DNA of 64,000 nt from Ceratodon purpureus (Eukaryota; Streptophyta; Bryopsida; Pseudoditrichales; Ditrichaceae). Each line of letters begins with the position of its first letter. The first letter of the stretch is position 1. The stretch lies in assembly GCA_014871385.1 (NCBI GenBank), contig CM026426.1, positions 38,023,776-38,087,775 of the forward strand, given 5' to 3'. A program made the position numbers and the translations under genes. Under the pieces are notes generated by a model. It searched no databases, was not told the DNA's origin, and was given only the letters and a program-made list of their open reading frames with translations. This document shows, in pieces, positions 53,700 to 63,556 of the stretch.

Positions 53700-55283
53700 A
53701 TTGTCTAAAAAAAATTGCTGAAATTGTAGGCAAAAAATCTCAAAGTTCTGAAATTATCTCAAAATAACGAATATGGTCATTTATCAAGATTTAACAGTTT
53801 CTCGAAGTTTGCGCAATGCCCCGAAGGTGTGTGTACATTCTTGATGGTTTGGAGAAGTTTCCGGTTGTTGTTTCTTTGGAGCACATAAGGGGCATGTGGC
53901 TTCGTAAAGGTCGACGTTGAACAATCTTGCACGAGGTGGAGCTCTGGCATTACCCTGTCTGTTGCATGTCCTTGCGGACAGCTATGGTGTCCGCCTCTCC
54001 CAGAACAAATCCCATTGCATTCAATGCCACGTTCTTTTCAATGTGCATTATGTCAAGCGTGTGCCTTACTAGTAGCTCATGCGCATTGTAAAGAAACTGT
54101 ATTAGAAAACATTCACTGCGCTATAGAGTGAGCTCCCAGTGTGTATGCTAGAAATGACTCTCTGTTGTTACAACGTTTTTAAATCACATGTATGTAGTAA
54201 CTTTCAGGGAAGCGGCATCCCGAGGCTTAGAGATTGCTTCACCGTATAGCTACACAACCACACTTCTCCCCCACCATTGGGGAATATACCGGGTAGGCAC
54301 CTTTCTCTAAGACATCCAGTACCGACTTCACTGTTATATTAATTCCTCGATCATGAAATACTAAACAATGTGATGAGTAATCTGTGCACACAGCGAGTGA
54401 AATTCTGCAGTTCTACGACGAAACTAAAAGTCAGAGTACATATGAAATTTAATTGCCATAATTAATGATATTTGTCTCTCTTCAAAACAAAACCTCGGTA
54501 CTGAAAGTCTGAAAGTGATACAAGTTAGATTTGGAGGCTCCATAGTATGCAAACAATTGATTTCGTGATGTGACACTTACATTTAAGGTTAACTCAGGGA
54601 AAAAATGAATGGGCTCCGGCAACACTCATAAAATGACAATGTCGAATATCATGGCACTTATCTCGAGATAACTATATATCGCCGAATAAGAAAGATGCGT
54701 TTCTAGCAATATCCAAACTATGACATGCGTATCTCATGACAAACTATATTTTGCCGAATTTGATATGATATTGACAGAGAATATGGCCCGGGAATATTCC
54801 GATTCCAATGTCTGCGACAATGTATTACTACTGTGCCCAAAAAAATAGGTATCAGTGGAACTGCTAAAATATACGTTTATCAAAATTCGTGGAAGAAAAT
54901 AAGCTAAAATGCAAGTCCGAGAGGTGGATTTCGGACTAAAGTCACCTACATTGTTCTCTTGGAGCGCACACAAAATGTAGTAGTACTGTAGAGATATTAG
55001 GCACTGAATGTTGGGACTGATACGATGTGCATGTGCGGCGGCGGAGCTGGTGTAGGGGCGAGGAAAATAAAACTGTGGATTCTTGGACTGCTTGACATCG
55101 GAAGGTCCTACGTTATATTTAACAGGGGATTTGAGGTGCGCCACGAGATTATACGACATTCGCATCATGTCACAGCCATGCTAATTATTCAAGGGAATTC
55201 AATTATTTTTCAAGTTCAAGGAACTTACTCGCCAGCAGGGAAGTTGGTAGAAGCAGGATACTCGCTTAATGCTTGACTTCTGC
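53700..55283 (-). pseudogene. CACTA TNP2 transposase relic, middle part
   Basis: From the copia target site the TNP2 text continues leftwards (AEVKH, stop, ASILLLPTSLLA), ending at a donor GCGA|GTAAGT near 55,225. The clearest block is at 54,080-53,760: LVRHTLDIMHIEKNVALNAM then GFVLGEADTIAVRKDMQQTG, a stop, and after a frame change APYVLQRNNN and HTPSGHCANFEKLLNLDK. It matches LR.NLDVMHIEKNVCDN and TPSGY.SN of TNP2. The intervening 54.1-55.2 kb is intron-like or diverged. Confidence 0.6.
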
Positions 55284-55288
55284 ATGGG

Positions 55289-55432
55289 TGTTCACAATAT
55301 TAGAAGTAAATTAGGGTTTCTAATTTTAACCGACCTAAAGTCGTCGCCGCCATGGCTCCGCCCTGGCTCATGTATAAACTCCTTCTCTTCTAATTCATAG
55401 CTCTCTCTGAGCTGCTTTTCTCGATATCAACA
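55289..55432 (+). repeat. 5' LTR of copia element
   Basis: TGTTCACAAT ... GATATCAACA, 144 bp. Very short for an LTR, and contains a TATAAA-like ATGTATAAACT. Confidence 0.92.
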
Positions 55433-55444
55433 TGGTATCAGAGC
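55433..55444 (+). other. primer binding site (initiator Met tRNA)
   Basis: TGGTATCAGAGC directly abuts the 5' LTR, the usual site in plant Ty1/copia elements. Confidence 0.9.
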
Positions 55445-55494
55445 TGTTTTATTGAAAAACAGATCCAAAGTCAGTCTCTCTTCCATTTCTCAAA

Positions 55495-56367
55495 ATGGAC
55501 TCTACTCTGAGAGACATGTCCGACTCAACGAAGCTTGAAGGACAGACTAACTATCTCCTATGGAGTTATAGGACTAAGATGATTCTTTTGCAGGAAAAGT
55601 TGTGGTGTTTCATCGAGGTACCTGCTAGCAACGCCGGCACCAGCTCTGGAAGTAGCTCCAGCACCAGCGGTGCAACCTCAGGACATGCCACCTCCGGAGT
55701 AACCGCAGCCGCTACAGCCACCAGCACTCCAACATCTGCGCCTACACCTGCTTCCGCACCAGACGAGGCCGAGCGCAAGATCAAAGCCTGCAGAGTCATC
55801 ATATCAACAGTTAAGGATCACGTTATCATTCACATCCTTCATTTAACTGACCCCTTAGAAATCTGGAACAAGTTAAAGACAATGTACGATATTCAGTCTC
55901 CATCCCGCAGATTAGCACTTAAGGAGAGACTCAATTCACTTCGTATGCCAGAAGGAAAGACATTAGACTCACATCTCCAAGATGTAAACTCGATAGTCAC
56001 CCAGCTAGTTAGTTTAGGAGTGACAATTCAAGATGAAGATTTAGTGGACCAAATGCTGTCCAGCTTGCCCAAAAGCTGGAGCACATTTAAAGCAATTCAA
56101 CAAGGTAGGGAACGGAGCCCCACCTTCTCGGAATTGCAGGGATCTATGCTGCATGAAGAGAGCTGACGTATGACAAAGCGGCGCGAGACAGATGAAGTCC
56201 TGTACGCACAGCAGTCTGACACACATCACCGCCACAATCCTTCCCGGGGCGGACGCTTTGGCAGAAGAGGCCGAGGCCGAGGCAGGAGCTTCCACGGTCC
56301 ACGCACCTGCAGACGCTGTGGCTCAACAGCACACACTGAGGCACATTGCGAAACCACGAAGATTTAA
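55495..56367 (+). pseudogene. copia gag with zinc knuckle, one nonsense codon
   Basis: Gag packages element RNA. ATG at 55,495 (MDSTLRDMSDSTKLEGQTN), then NYLLWSYRTKMILLQEKLWC of the N-terminal block and a long Ser/Thr/Ala/Pro linker (about residues 45-85). The UBN2-type capsid region follows (IWNKLKTMYDIQSPSRRLAL; MLSSLPKSWSTFKAIQQ). TGA at 56,164 interrupts the frame. Past it, in the same frame, comes an Arg/Gly-rich stretch and the CCHC knuckle CRRCGSTAHTEAHC at 56,308-56,349. TAA at 56,365 and TAG at 56,395 then separate it from protease, again without frame change. CGA, CAA and CAG are the natural precursors, so all three stops fit C-to-T. Confidence 0.85.
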
Positions 56368-56499
56368 AGACAAATTCGCGACCTCTAGGTACAACTGTCA
56401 AAGCTCAAGACCACTCATTCTACATCATACTCATCTATCGACGTCTTACCAAGTGACGAGTCTGAAGGCGACGATACACAGGCAGCGCTAAACGCGTGC

Positions 56500-57042
56500 A
56501 TGTCCGCATTTACAGTCGATGAGGAACCCTGGTTTCTGGACTCTGGCGCCAGTTGGCATGTCACGGGGAATCCTCACCTCTTCACCGACAAGTCTCATTC
56601 CTCTATCACTAGCATTAGAACCGCAGCAGGCCAGGTTCTCCCTGTAGTACACAAGGGAAACATTAATTTCTCTGACCATGAAGTAAAAAGTGTACAAGAC
56701 ATTCTCTACGTCCCAAGAGTGAAAACCAATCTTCTATTAGTCGGCCGGTTTGCAGATTTAGGCCACACCATTTTGTTTAATTCAAACAAATGCCTCATCT
56801 ATGATACTTACAATCCCAAGGCTGTGTTTCTGGAAGCTCACCGCGATCCGCGTACCAAGTTATATCGACTAACTGCGAAGCCTGTCCCAAAACAATCAAC
56901 AGCCCTCTCAGTTAGTGCACCATCAAAAGTTTCCATTGAAACTGTAAATCTCTGGCATAGAAGGTTAGCTCATGTTAATCAACAGAGCCTCTATCATCTA
57001 TCTAACAGAGGACTGGTAAATGGGATCCCCAGAATTCCCTGA
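56500..57042 (+). pseudogene. copia protease and GAG-pre-integrase segment
   Basis: Same frame as gag. The active site is WFLDSGASWHVTG (catalytic Asp at 56,539), followed by the copia-type IRTAAGQVLPVVHKGNI and DILYVPRVKTNLLLVGRF. The pre-integrase zinc region WHRRLAHVNQQSLYHL follows near 56,955. The frame ends at TGA 57,040. The zinc-binding Cys pair (HCMSC) and the rest of integrase are in the next frame, consistent with one lost base near 57,035-57,050. Confidence 0.85.
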
Positions 57043-57044
57043 AA

Positions 57045-58010
57045 CGCCATTGTATGAGCTGTATTCTGAGAAAATCCCATCGACAACCATTCCCGAAGAC
57101 GCGCTCCACTTTTTCCGCTGCCCCGCTCGAACTTGTGCACAGTGACCTCTGTGGCCCGCTGTCTACACCCACATTGGCCAACTGTAAGTACATCTTAACC
57201 TTCATAGATGATTTTTCACGGAAAACATGGATTTACTTTCTTCAAACGAAATCTCAGACACTAAGCTACTTTCTTCAATTCAAGGCACTGGTAGAGACAC
57301 CTACCAGAAAGATTCAAAGCCTTCGGTCTGACAGGGGAGGCGAGTATCTCTCCTCCGAATTTGAGCAATTCTGCAAGGCCCACGGAATCCACCATCAGTT
57401 AACAGCTGGATACTCCCCCCAACAGAATGGAGTGGCTCAGTGCAGAAATCGTTACCTGCTGGAAGGGATCAGGAGCGTCGCTTCAGGCACCCGAATTCCC
57501 AGGTTCTTGTGGGATGAAGTTGCTCGAACTGTGAATTACATACAAAACCGACTACCTTGTAGAGCGCTCAACTTGAAGACACCTGAGGAAACCTATACAG
57601 GTCAGAAACCGAACATCTCTCTCTTAAGGGTCATAGGCTGTCTTGCATTTTGTCACAGTCCGAAAGAAAAACGCTCTAAGCTAGATCCAAAAGCCATCGC
57701 TACCCTATTCTTAGGCTACGATGAGTCATCAAAGGCTTACCGCTGCTATAACCCTCTGACCCGCAAGATTATCCTCAACCGCAATGTTACATTTGAAGAG
57801 TCCCTGTTTGTGTTAAATCCTCCTCCTGCACAAACCCAGCCAGTCTTGTTAGAACAACTTGATCTTTCTACTCTGCAAACCACTCATCCAGCCAATAATA
57901 CAAACCTCTCTACACTCCCTACTGCTCAGCCCCGGTGCTTACCCCAAACGATATTCCCTGATGTCCAGCCTCCTTCTCCTCCACGGTCCCTGTTTCTGCA
58001 CAACAACCAC
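57045..58010 (+). pseudogene. copia integrase, catalytic Glu replaced
   Basis: Integrase inserts the DNA copy. Catalytic residues: Asp in HSDLCGPL (57,144) and Asp in RSDRGGEYLSSEF (57,330). At the exact D-35-E position the codon is CAG (57,438), so NGVAERKNR reads NGVAQCRNR, with Glu to Gln and the next Arg to Cys. The GKEL-like C-terminal region is legible (YTGQKPNISLLRVIGCLAFC; ATLFLGYDESSKAYRCYNP). The frame changes again before 58,010 to that of reverse transcriptase. Without the Glu this copy could not integrate by itself. Confidence 0.85.
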
Positions 58011-59809
58011 TACAGGTATTAGAAAATTCTCCAATCGCCTCTCATCCCATAGAGCCCCGTAGAAGATCCAGGTCCCGGGCACCCAGCGTCAAGCTGGGTG
58101 ATTACTATGTATATCTCACTCAGGACTCTCCAGATTGCTACGCTGCTCTCGTTGGCACTTCAGAATCTGTACCAGCACAGGTTCCAACTCCCACCGATCC
58201 ATTAGAACCTACCTTTCAGCAAGCAATCAGAGACCCAGCCTGGACTGAGGCTATGAAAACCGAGATGAATAGCATTTACAAAAATCACACTTGGAAGTTA
58301 GAACCCTTACCTCAAGGGATAAAACCCATTAGCTGTAAATGGGTCTTTAAAACCATACCAGGCCCTCCTGGATTCCCTCCTACTCGCAAGGCAAGATTAG
58401 TTGCACGTGGATTCCAGCAGAAGCCCGGCCTCGACTACCAAGAAACGTTTGCACCTATTATCAAGTGGGTAACCATTCGTGCAACAGTTGCCTTAGCAGC
58501 AGCAAATCAGTGGGACGTCCATCACATGGACGTCCGCACTGCATTCCTCCACGGCAAATCAAAGGAGGACGTCTTCATGTTGCAACCGCCTGGATTCATC
58601 ATTCCCGGCGAGGAACACAAGGTATGCCACCTGTTACGCTCCCTCTATGGCCTTAAGCAATCCCCACGCGCCTGGTACAAGAGGATTGACGCTTCTCTTC
58701 GTCAAGTAGGACTCCTGAGAAGCTCATATGATCCGAATCTGTACTATCTGCACAAGAACAACCAGATACTGTTAGTAATGCTTTACGTAGATGATCTTTT
58801 TATTACTGGTAGCTGCAGAAATCTGATACAATGGATCAAAACCTACCTAACTGAGGAGTTTGATATGACTGACCTAGGGCGAATCCAAAAATACCTGGGG
58901 GTTGTCTTTGACTATCTCCCCGATGGTATCTTGCTCCACCAGACTCAATACGCATTATCCATCCTCCGAGACTTTCTGCTTGCTGACCTCCAGTCTTCTA
59001 GAGTCCCTCTTCCTGCAGGGCAAATCCTCATCTCCGAAACCGGGACTCGACCTGTGGATCCCACACATTATTCCCAGTTAGTTGGGAAGCTTATTTTTTT
59101 AACAATTACTAGACCTGATATATCTTATGCGGTTAACCGCGTTGCCTCCTTCATGGCCAGTCCGCAGCAGCAACACCTCGACTCAGCCATCCACATCTTG
59201 AGGTACCTGAAACACACTCCAGACCACGGTATCCTTTATCAGAACCAAAAACCAATCTCATTGACAGGTTTTACTGACGCTGATTGGGGATCCTGTACGG
59301 AAACACGAAGGAGTGTAGGAGCTTACATGTTTCAGCTCTCAGGATCTCCCATTAGTTGGAGTAGCAAGCGGCAACTGACAATTTCAAGGTCCTCGACAGA
59401 ATCCAAATATCGAGCTCTTAGTGACGGTGTTCAAGAAGGTGTCTGGATCTCCAGACTCCTCACCGAACTTCAGGTACTTCCGAACCGTCGCATCCAAGTT
59501 TGCCACAAAACAAGTCCTATTAGCACAGAACTAGACACCCTAGTTAAAATCCATTGTGACAACCAAAGCGCTATTAAATTAGCTAAAAATCCTGTATTTC
59601 ACGCCAGATCAAAACACATTGAGATACACCATCACTTCATCCGTGAGAGGGTTCTAGAGGGGGAAATAGAATTGCAATTCATTAGTACCGCACTCCAGCC
59701 GGCTGATATTCTCACCAAACCCCTGGGTCAAATAAAATTCGAACAACATAGACAGAGCCTGAACCTCCTTTCTCTATCTTTTCTCAAGGCTAAACTATGT
59801 AAACCCTAG
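58010..59809 (+). CDS. copia reverse transcriptase and RNase H
   Basis: About 600 codons without a stop. It runs from the linker (SPIASHPIEPRRRSRS) through AIRDPAWTEAMKTEM, WVFKTIPG and ARLVARGFQQKPGLDYQETF to the polymerase active site YVDDLF (58,784-58,801), KYLGVVFDYL, and RNase H (TGFTDADWGSCTETRRSVGA; SSTESKYRALSDGVQE; KLAKNPVFHARSKHIEIHHH). RT copies element RNA to DNA and RNase H removes the RNA. As part of a polyprotein it has no own start; the first Met (58,253) is internal to the RT region. It ends at TAG 59,807-59,809. It appears intact, although the upstream frames are broken. Confidence 0.9.
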   Translation, partial: LQVLENSPIASHPIEPRRRSRSRAPSVKLGDYYVYLTQDSPDCYAALVGTSESVPAQVPTPTDPLEPTFQQAIRDPAWTEAMKTEMNSIYKNHTWKLEPLPQGIKPISCKWVFKTIPGPPGFPPTRKARLVARGFQQKPGLDYQETFAPIIKWVTIRATVALAAANQWDVHHMDVRTAFLHGKSKEDVFMLQPPGFIIPGEEHKVCHLLRSLYGLKQSPRAWYKRIDASLRQVGLLRSSYDPNLYYLHKNNQILLVMLYVDDLFITGSCRNLIQWIKTYLTEEFDMTDLGRIQKYLGVVFDYLPDGILLHQTQYALSILRDFLLADLQSSRVPLPAGQILISETGTRPVDPTHYSQLVGKLIFLTITRPDISYAVNRVASFMASPQQQHLDSAIHILRYLKHTPDHGILYQNQKPISLTGFTDADWGSCTETRRSVGAYMFQLSGSPISWSSKRQLTISRSSTESKYRALSDGVQEGVWISRLLTELQVLPNRRIQVCHKTSPISTELDTLVKIHCDNQSAIKLAKNPVFHARSKHIEIHHHFIRERVLEGEIELQFISTALQPADILTKPLGQIKFEQHRQSLNLLSLSFLKAKLCKP

Positions 59810-60355
59810 CCTAACAGATAGCGCTGCGCTTCCTCCAGCGATCCAAAGGATCGAAATTCAGCACCACGAAACCTATGCACTTGTAGCTTACACATCTTCC
59901 AACTTGTAAAAACTCCTACGATCCTCCCTCTACGGACAGCGTAAAATTTACCCAAAACCCTAGGTACCTCTTCTCGGTCCAGGATCCTCCAGCAACCTTC
60001 ACCTTTCTTCGCCAATTGAGTGTCTCTCAATCCGATCGTATCTCCTACAGATTTCACCCACGGCTTAAAAACCCAATAGAAATTTAATTAAGCAGAAACA
60101 CAGAAATCATAGGGTTCCAATTTTACCTGATTCGCAGTTTACTTGGAGTCGCTCCAATTCGGCACCATCGACTCGCTCTCCCTCGTCATCTTCAACAGCC
60201 AACTGTCTCGACACACGAGCATCAACCCAAGAAACGATACCGCCAACAACGCAGGAGATCAACCCTGCGATTCCCAAGATCACCATCGCGACGTAGTCCA
60301 ACCACGACCGATCAGTTCTCTGACGCGGCATCTTCCCTCTCCTGATACTCGACAT
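59806..60355 (-). CDS. antisense two-exon gene: TM segment plus RNase H1-N/viroplasmin-like domain
   Basis: Exon 1 is 60,355-60,127 and exon 2 is 60,044-59,806. The 82-bp intron has CAG|GTAAAA and CTGTAG|GA borders and joins the codons in phase: 468 bp, 155 aa plus stop. The start ATG gives MSSIRRGKMPRQRTDRS; a second Met follows at residue 9. Residues about 20-43 (YVAMVILGIAGLISCVVGGI) form one membrane helix; acidic text follows (VEDDEGERVDGAELERL). The last 50 residues, GKFYAVRRGRIVGVFTSW then CKLQVHRFRGAEFRSFGSLE, match the RNase H1 N-terminal (caulimovirus VI, PF01693) domain that binds RNA:DNA hybrids. No catalytic RNase H domain. No internal stop. It shares CTAG (59,806-59,809) with the pol stop. 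Its job is unknown. Confidence 0.7.
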
Positions 60356-60410: not shown

Positions 60411-60422
60411 TTTGAGAGGGGG
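60411..60422 (+). other. polypurine tract
   Basis: TTTGAGAGGGGG directly before the 3' LTR; primes plus-strand DNA synthesis in LTR elements. Confidence 0.85.
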
Positions 60423-60566
60423 TGTTCACAATATTAGAAGTAAATTAGGGTTTCTAATTTTAACCGACCTAAAGTGGTTGCCGCCATCGCTCCGCCCTGG
60501 CTCATGTATAAACTCTTTCTCTTCTAATTCATAGCTCTCTCTGAGCTGCTTTTCTCGATATCAACA
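60423..60566 (+). repeat. 3' LTR of copia element
   Basis: 144 bp; four substitutions relative to the 5' LTR, three of them clustered in the GTSGTYGCCGCCATSG stretch. Confidence 0.92.
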
Positions 60567-60571
60567 ATAGG

Positions 60572-63556
60572 ATCATTTTGAGCCGGTGCACCTTCCTCCC
60601 TTATCCACCATTCGCGTTCAAGTCCCCATCGGAGTGCAGCCTCGCCGGAAACAGGCTCAGGTGGTCCTCGATTTTCAATGGATCTAAAATTTGCCACGTC
60701 ATTCCTCATATGATGATCGTCGAGAAGAAATCGGCGAACACAGTTTTCGAAGACGTTCTTGTAAAGAAGTTTGGCCCTTCTTGACGTGAATCCCTCCCCG
60801 CAGACTGCGCAGCTGTGAAACCTCTTTGTTGCACAGCCCGCCATAAGCCCGTAAGCAGGGAAGTAGCCAATTGTCCAGATAACCATTGCCCTGAAAATAA
60901 AGTTTGACGAGTTCTTGTACTGTGATGCATCTTTACAGTAGATGCCGTAGCTCCAAAGATCAAGTAGCCCGTCCATAAGGATGACATAAATTCGTTAAAG
61001 TAGTCTGCGGTTACAGATTTTGGCCCAAGCATTAACAATGGAAGCATAATAAAGTATTTTTTTGTTGTGCACCATGGTGCAATGTTGTAAATTCAAAAGC
61101 AACACAGACTTGATTAAATATGTACTTCTCTTATCAGACGATGGATTGAAGCCGTCCGCAATGAGCGCCATTTGAATGCATCTATCGTCGTATGCAAACT
61201 CGTTAGCCCAGCGCTCGATAATCCACCTCCCCTGCGTGAAGTGCGACACATGCCTCATAATGCTATTGTCACATTGTTGAGTCGCCCACCAGGTCATGGC
61301 TATAGCTTGCATTGGGCTTCGAAATATACGCTTCAGTCTAGGTGTGAGTGAAAAAAATCTCAGTATCTTGTGAGGCACCATAGATTTCCCATACCTCTTC
61401 TTCCTGGGAGCATGGCACTTGAGACATGAAATAGCGTTTTTAAGTCCTTTCCTTCATAGCCGACAACTGTTAGGGCAAACATTGTAGCTTTTATAGGAAT
61501 GGCCCAATTTCTTTATGTATTCTAAGGCCTCTCGATAGGATGAAGGCAATGAGTTCGGTTTAGACAATACTGATTTGCTAAGAGTTCTAAACAGCTCATC
61601 CATATAAACATTGGTGCATCCATGTAGCTTGCCAGAGTTTAGTAGAAGATACATGGTACCCATACTTGACAGCTCCGAACCGCTGAACAGCGGCGTTGCA
61701 GCTGCTTCTTCGAGTGCCCTTGTAGAAGACTCCGTCTCGTCATCTCAATTGTCCCAGTCGGTTTGTCTTCAATAGAGCTGGTATCGTCACCGGAATCTTT
61801 GAGTGGTCCATCATCGACGTGTTCAGTGTCGTTGCCTTCGCCATCTGTGTCCGTTTCATCATCAGGCACATGTTCCGGGGAGCCTATGATTCCCTCATGC
61901 CTTGGAGACATTGCTGAAACGGGGACTATCCTATTTGTAGCCAAAGAAGAGAGAGAGCTTGATCTCTGCCCAACTGATTGTGGTGCAGTGTGCGAGCCAA
62001 ATGATTCAGCCTCCCTTTCGAAGTCGCGATGTTCTGGCGCGTCTGCTTGAAGCCGGTCTCTTAAGTCGTAGGTCTCCGTTATTATGTCCACCAAGTCGAT
62101 TCCGGGATCTAATCTTCTCTGTCTGACCCTTCGCAGTCTCTCAGTTGCTACAGCTCCATGATACCATTCTATATGGGCATCCCACTCTGCGTCGGAATCG
62201 TCCGCCTCATAACCCTTGCAGTATGGAAAGAAGTAGCAACTAGAAATGTAACATCTAAGGGGGTCATATACTAATCATTTGGCTTCTAGGTACACTTGTT
62301 GGAGAACGGGTGCCCAATTCTCCAGTGTGTAAAAAGCTGATATGGATGAGGACACATTAACATAACAAGCAGCACAATCCAAATCCCAGTTCAAGTTAGT
62401 TGGTGATTAAATGCCAAGTAAGAAGTATACCTGTGGATTTGAGGATTGCAACGACACAAATCATGTTTCAGTTTCTCAAGAAATAGGGCATTGAAAGTAA
62501 CAAACACCAGCTCACTAACTCAAAAAAAAGTACGAGGGATTGTTAGAACAGAGCTATCACTGAGAAAGACATAATTAAATCAATAAAATGTACCCTAGAG
62601 CTCCTGAAGAACCACGGGTGTTAACGGGGTTTTCACCAGTAGGCTAGAAGCACAAACAGTAAGTAGGGGCAAAACAATAATCTAGGGCAGTAAAACTTCC
62701 AATTACTGTTCTAAACAGCAGTAACTCTATCATGGATGAAAACTGCTAGACAGATGAAAATTGATGATGGATGAAAATTGATGATGATGAAAATTGGTGG
62801 ATGGATGACGGCGACCAGGGTTAGGGCTGGTGGCGGCTAGGGTTATGAAGGTGGCTGCTAGGTTTCAGAGGGTGGCGGCTAGGTTTTGGGAGGGGGTGCT
62901 AAAGTGGGGCTTGAAGGGCTCGTTCTCTCTCTCTTTCTTTCTTTTGGACTGGGAGCTCTCAAGTCTGTGTAGATGTGTGGGCAGACCAAGGCTTAGAGGT
63001 AGGCTATGGAGGTTAGGCAATGGAGGTTAGGAGTTAGGAGGATTGATGGTACTAGGACAGACCTGGAGGGGGCAGGATTGATTGTACATTTATAGGAAGT
63101 AATGACAAGTACAAGATCATCTTGGTCAATGTGGATTTTGGGTGTTAAAAGTTAGGGATTGAATGAGGAAATGAGGTTGTGTGTGTTGCATTAATTACAG
63201 TCAGGGGCAGGAAGTTGAGTCACCCGGTTCAGCTTAGGACAGGAGTGGTAAGAATTAGTAAAGAGTAGGGTTAGTGCTAATTTTTTTTCAGCAATCAGTA
63301 GGAGCAAGATAGATTTTCAGGGAGTAGAAAAATCTCCCTTTAACAACGGGTGCCTCCCATTCCGTGCCACACACCTCCAGTTTGACGTAATGGTGAGGGT
63401 AGACCTTTCACCACGTACGTGGAGATTGCAAGGGCATCTCATTTTATCCAAACCTTGCGATGTCACGTTCTCGATTTCCCGCTGCAGCAACCTCGCTTCA
63501 CGCCGTCTAATCCTTCCTTCATCTAACACTTGTCTTCTTATGTCTCCCACCATCAC
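60572..63556 (-). pseudogene. CACTA TNP2 transposase relic, N-terminal part
   Basis: The gene starts on the right. At 63,556-63,317 KMRCPCNLHVRG and VARNGRHPLLKGDF match the N-terminal transposase-associated zinc region. A long gap with a dispersed repeat follows. At 62,265-62,050 FFPYCKGYEADDSDAEWDAH then LDPGIDLVDIITETYDLRDR; 61,640-61,460 LFRTLSKSVLSKPNSLPSSY and YNVCPNSCRL; about 61,440-61,300 CLKCHAPRKKRYGKS and VPHKILRFFSLTPRLKRIF; 61,150 LIADGFNPSSDKRSTYLIKS; 61,040 MLPLLMLGPKS; 60,900-60,640 FRAMVIWTIGYFPAYGLMAG and CAVCGEGF. These are the ordered TNP2 blocks. Several frames are broken. The copia element cuts it at 60,571. Confidence 0.72.
62640..63000 (-). repeat. dispersed repeat, copy B (inverted partner of 14.2-14.7 kb)
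   Basis: On the minus strand CCTAGCCGCCACC units, TTTTCATCC runs, ATAGAGTTACTGC and AGTTTTACTGCCC occur in the same order as in copy A. It sits in a TNP2 intron-like gap, so it is probably an insertion. Upstream on the minus strand a TATA-like CTATAAATGTAC is present near 63,095. Confidence 0.5.

Follow-up and report, generated by a model that had tools for sequence, protein, structure and literature searches.

The antisense gene and its copia element

The window analysed here is a 64,000-nt stretch of contig CM026426.1 of Ceratodon purpureus, to which all coordinates refer. It contains a long terminal repeat (LTR) retrotransposon with a pol of copia order, the integrase preceding the reverse transcriptase (RT), and, on the opposite strand (60355-59806), a gene of two exons that encodes 155 amino acids when these are joined. 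The features of the element and its surroundings are as follows.

53798-54078, (-): piece like the DUF4218 part of a CACTA gene (29-52% identity), on the other flank of the copia element
55289-55432, (+): 5' LTR of the copia element, TGTT..AACA (detected as direct repeat 55286-55432)
55433-55444, (+): primer binding site adjoining the 5' LTR, read from the sequence
55456-59809, (+): gag-pol, broken by stops at 56164, 56365 and 56386 and by two frame changes
59806-60044, (-): exon 2 of the antisense gene with the stop codon of the joined frame
59818-59949, (-): RNase H1 N-terminal (hybrid-binding) domain, PF01693, a C-terminal profile match
60045-60126, (-): 82-nt GT-AG intron with conserved splice sites
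60127-60355, (-): exon 1 of the antisense gene, 229 nt, ATG at 60355
60233-60289, (-): hydrophobic (probable membrane) helix, residues 23-41, as read from hydropathy alone
60414-60422, (+): polypurine tract, read from the sequence
60423-60566, (+): 3' LTR, direct repeat
60569-61744, (-): piece of a CACTA transposase (tnp2) beside which the copia element is inserted, recognised by sequence comparison

An earlier note on this DNA had described a spliced frame of 155 amino acids with an 82-bp GT-AG intron in a copia element, and the joined frame was confirmed; unspliced, the antisense reading frame runs into a stop at codon 83. The note had placed this frame opposite pol. Instead, the gene follows the pol stop (59807-59809), overlapping pol by 4 nt, and precedes the polypurine tract, and its ATG is found 67 bp on the inner side of the 3' LTR. 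The three nonsense codons and two frame changes previously reported in gag-pol are present at the positions listed, and there are 4 differences over 147 nt between the two LTR copies. The copia element of the window is dead. It is nested in a CACTA transposase gene, two parts of which (53798-54078 and 60569-61744) are extant on either flank, and such nesting is a possible path for genes between transposon classes. Elsewhere in the window, at 62829-62896, a 26-nt unit occurs three times at 21-nt spacing.

The exon 2 frame matches PF01693 with a score of 68.3 bits (E 6.6e-19), the cut-off being 21, and the solved hybrid-binding domains of human and yeast RNase H1 match the window domain with E-values of 5e-10 to 8.3e-10. 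A single-sequence AlphaFold2 model of exon 2 has a strand-strand-helix-strand-helix order, with a mean pLDDT of only 54.7. The domain ends 3 residues short of the C-terminus of the protein, while the single hydrophobic stretch (residues 23-41, mean hydropathy 2.53) is encoded by exon 1. PF01693 is the sole Pfam family above cut-off in the whole exon frames, in which neither the nuclease domain of RNase H1 nor TRP28 (PF04195) was matched. The earlier description of a C-terminal PF01693 domain with no nuclease is thereby upheld, the domain by its significant profile score, while the described membrane helix is a probable one by its hydropathy. Compared to RNase H1, the hybrid-binding domain is alike, with the Tyr, the Trp and the basic residue kept, whereas the window protein has no nuclease domain and possesses an added helix.

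In a set of 41 domains collected from the genome (see below), the Tyr, the Trp and the next Lys/Arg are each conserved in 41/41. A human RNase H1 mutant carrying W43A, K59A and K60A is called non-binding in the account given in PMC6868509. The window domain has kept the Trp at the position of W43, and has Arg and Ser at those of K59 and K60, respectively; the K60 position is occupied by Ser in 29/41 domains and by a basic residue in 2/41. The Ser at the K60 position speaks against binding, yet the nature of the domain and its kept residues make it probable that the antisense protein binds RNA:DNA hybrids or dsRNA.

Occurrence among copia relatives and selection on the coding frame

The 362.5-Mb assembly was searched with PF01693, the best 150 of 261 candidates were scored (all over the cut-off), and the 40 best-scoring loci were read in detail. 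In 26 of these 40, a copia pol adjoins the domain on the opposite strand with its RT end nearest, while no pol was found on the same strand; the RTs of the copia domain loci are about 30% to 89% identical to the window RT. Thirteen copia loci were taken as ten-kb stretches; a pair of LTRs was recognised in seven of them, and in those seven the domain precedes the 3' LTR.

As to chromosomal distribution, 83 of the 150 listed domain matches are on contig C6, whose 110.5 Mb make up about 30% of the 362.5-Mb assembly and which may be a sex chromosome; the sex chromosomes of C. purpureus are described as being over 100 Mb, about 30% of 360 Mb (PMC8000587).

With the window RT as query, the best 71 of 1093 first-look candidates, the window included, were scored. 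In 48 of the 71, a listed domain match follows on the 3' side of the RT match at a distance of 4-782 nt; it is antisense in all 48 and sense in none. No domain was found 5' of the RT match, which is a weak control, since that side is pol itself. The first 20 of the remaining 23 loci were read with a profile built from the 41 domains already collected; 16 have an antisense domain at 47.6-69.1 bits, one has a match of 14.3 bits and three are without, while the last three loci carry the domain at 58.0-66.3 bits. In total, a clear domain is present in 67 of the 71 scored RT relatives and a weak one in one more, always in antisense orientation. The RT matches of the three domain-less loci end at residues 470, 576 and 525 of 615; truncation is likely behind their lack of the domain, yet other loci with short matches have it.

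The carriers of the antisense gene fall in four supported deep copia clades of the RT tree. Distances between the domains correlate with those between the RTs (Mantel r 0.55, a value that none of 2000 shuffles attained), which is what one would expect of a gene that for the most part moved together with its elements. "Cargo", the word used in the earlier note, is too weak for a gene extant in 67-68 of 71 relatives; as judged by these comparisons, copia elements in this genome carry it as a conserved accessory gene, and it is no one-off capture.

The splice sites and the reading frame were compared in an alignment of ten members, all near relatives of the window gene. The acceptor AG is kept in 10/10, the donor G in 9/10 (lost in locus L036) and the ATG in 9/10, and the intron measures 79-85 nt. 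Indels in the exons are of 9 and 3 nt, except for one of 2 nt at the lost L036 donor boundary, while those in the intron are of 1, 2, 4, 7 and 8 nt, none of them a multiple of three. Only on the antisense strand do the conserved splice sites form GT-AG, which fits the earlier suggestion that the intron may persist because sense RNA cannot splice it.

All 45 pairs of the ten-member alignment gave dN/dS values of 0.12-0.55, which are rough, many dS being >1. These are well under 1, the value near which the earlier note would have expected a chance or one-off capture. For exon 1 the range is 0.15-0.94, where 0.94 arises from a pair with an overall dS of only 0.036, and for exon 2 it is 0.08-0.59. 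Between the window and L036, dN/dS is 0.19 in exon 1, 0.13 in exon 2 and 0.07 in RT, which implies that the antisense gene evolves faster than RT yet is constrained. Other copia pairs show 0.03-0.45 for the domain and 0.2-1.06 for the upstream part, the latter being a mix of exon, linker and intron; two pairs with dN/dS >3 were excluded as artefacts, L036, L042 and L046 being misregistered by 1-4 residues. Ranking of the loci by PF01693 score means that the conservation of the domain is partly selected for; exon 1 is free of this bias.

Complete stop-free spliced frames were found in four of the ten members (the window, L069, L072 and L075), L070 is open over its aligned part, and a stop or a lost site occurs in five. 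The pol frames of the L069 and L072 copies are open over 1509 and 1460 amino acids, respectively. A chance ORF or a one-off capture is ruled out by the 71-locus count together with the dN/dS values. The conserved splice sites and frame make it very probable that we are dealing with a conserved, spliced and protein-coding gene.

The gene in CACTA elements

CACTA transposase sequence was found near the domain in five of the seven non-copia ten-kb loci (L010, L013, L017, L018 and L019), and the tnp2 transposase (PF02992) was confirmed by Pfam in L013, L017 and L019. L017 and L018 have tnp2 and the gene in common over about 9.5 kb, and L016 duplicates part of the L017 unit (99.5%). A transposase fragment is present in L034, and L045 includes a stretch resembling the 5' part of the L017 transposase, the printed E-value being that of linked pieces; L030, L031, L043 and L048 were assigned by resemblance only. 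Mobile elements are associated with 34 of the 40 domain loci read, 26 of these being copia and 8 having CACTA evidence. L027 and L040 are a close pair of helix-plus-domain genes, possibly a non-element copy; neither copia nor transposase was found nearby, over 10 kb in L027 and over 1.9 kb in L040.

The placement of the gene relative to the transposase varies: it is divergent in L010, L017, L018 and L045, upstream on the transposase strand in L013 and L034, and downstream on the same strand in L019. The helix-then-domain plan is kept in the three commonest types outside copia. In a control, 2 of the 13 copia ten-kb loci were also seen to have transposase pieces on their far side. In a crude search of nine ten-kb loci, no terminal inverted repeats of CACTA type were seen around the gene. 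Among 150 scored CACTA transposases, only two are within 20 kb of a listed domain match, and the gene is thus rare and optional in CACTA.

A tree of the domain only (51 columns) had too few columns and was replaced by one of helix plus domain, comprising 95 columns and 29 of 41 rows with the window included. The helices were picked by eye, and the copia group labels were set before the tree was viewed. Rows without a clear helix (L013, L029, L031, L034 and L046) and near-duplicates (L017, L018, L021, L025, L032, L038 and L039) were omitted. Copia and non-copia rows are intermixed in this tree; the copia locus L014 pairs with L016 (support 95/88), and the copia locus L047 with the CACTA-like L045 (support 100/100, 76% over 89 columns). 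Copia as a single clade was rejected (p-AU 2.6e-37 with the 29 rows, among which there are long branches), and its monophyly was still rejected with only three CACTA rows (p-AU 0.0016). It is thus quite likely, judging from the trees and the carriers, that the antisense gene has been shared and exchanged with CACTA, i.e. between class I and class II elements.

Known counterparts and possible function

Antisense additional ORFs (aORFs) between pol and the 3' LTR have been described in plant LTR retrotransposons, such as gene23 of Grande, RIRE2, TRP28 of Retand and PvRetro13 (PMC7264820, PMC11963269), and their function is presented as an open question (PMC7264820). The window gene is similar to these in its location between pol and the 3' LTR, its orientation and its presence in most copies. 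The Retand study deals with Ty3/gypsy elements carrying TRP28 and a small number of other domains (PMC11963269), whereas here the host is a copia element, the intron is conserved, a helix is combined with a hybrid-binding domain and there are relatives in CACTA. Antisense extra ORFs are already known in plant retrotransposons, and the window gene adds a strong variant.

The capE gene of a Pleurotus Helitron, described as captured (PMC4289320), is likewise a DNA-transposon gene for a protein with PF01693; it is one captured gene in one fungal Helitron, in contrast to a conserved gene common to two classes. In those parts of the literature that were searched we found no description of a gene with PF01693 from either copia or CACTA elements. 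P6 (TAV) of caulimoviruses, compared by description, has a similar PF01693-type domain, while the exon frames of the window match no further Pfam family above cut-off. P6 is read from the sense strand, and its length far exceeds that of the window protein. The domain of P6 is reported to bind hybrids and dsRNA in vitro and to lie in the TOR-binding part; P6 is a silencing suppressor, although the PF01693-type domain is reported as dispensable for that suppression (PMC5902531).

We propose, with a probability of roughly 0.55 for the explanation as a whole, that the antisense gene is a spliced copia accessory gene whose product is a membrane-anchored binder of hybrids or dsRNA, serving both transposon classes against silencing. 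The strand opposite to gag-pol would be the one transcribed, the promoter probably lying within the 3' LTR or next to it, and the spliced antisense transcript would yield a protein of ~155 amino acids with a hydrophobic helix and a nuclease-free RNase H1-type domain. This protein would bind RNA:DNA hybrids and dsRNA and, by holding element-derived dsRNA or hybrids at a membrane, could blunt the small-RNA silencing of the host. Taken by itself, the counteraction of silencing is a tentative part of the proposal.

The CACTA carriers and the class-mixing tree suggest a job that both classes need. DNA transposons have no reverse-transcription intermediate, and a role shared by the two classes is thus required; dsRNA and R-loops arising where elements are transcribed, along with the small-RNA defence fed by them, are found with both and form a candidate common target. 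More speculatively still, the gene might be a selfish module that crosses classes, having spread among copia and CACTA elements through a membrane-anchored, nuclease-free product that binds hybrids and dsRNA and disarms a common defence, as the plant transposon counterpart of a viral silencing suppressor.

A different role would be that of a helper of reverse transcription, in which the membrane-anchored domain holds or shields copia RNA:DNA hybrids or tethers particles. Its near-universality in copia relatives, its spread over four deep copia clades and the conservation of the hybrid-binding residues agree with such a role. CACTA DNA transposons, however, do not reverse-transcribe. The presence of the same gene in some of them, as well as the mixing of classes in the tree, make this role rather unlikely and weaken the tethering or shielding of hybrid intermediates suggested in the earlier note, from which the conserved antisense coding gene with a hybrid-binding domain is retained.

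Self-restraint or a benefit to the host, with the protein limiting copy number or a former host gene being now element-borne, would be in line with the domain loci lacking an assigned element (L027 and L040). The mobile elements at 34 of the 40 loci read speak against this improbable alternative, and no host source gene was found among the PF01693 loci read. Slightly less probable again is that the antisense RNA itself matters, pairing with the genomic RNA so as to curb or modulate the element, with the protein being secondary. Such control was raised as a possibility for other antisense ORFs by Vicient and Casacuberta (PMC7264820) and is compatible with the antisense orientation in every copia case placed, but not readily with protein-level selection in both exons or with the other placements of the CACTA copies. 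A passenger, i.e. a piece of a host gene that was captured a single time and has drifted since, might be imagined from the dead window element and the broken gene in five of ten relatives, but is refuted by the presence of the gene in 67-68 of 71 relatives and dN/dS values of 0.12-0.55.

The proposal of a membrane-anchored binder of hybrids or dsRNA that acts for both classes has consequences for the study of aORFs. A recognisable nucleic-acid-binding domain, a conserved antisense intron and near-universality among the relatives together render the function of an aORF directly testable. An exchange of the gene across the two transposon classes would point to a common host target; if so, it would be a candidate anti-defence gene of transposons.
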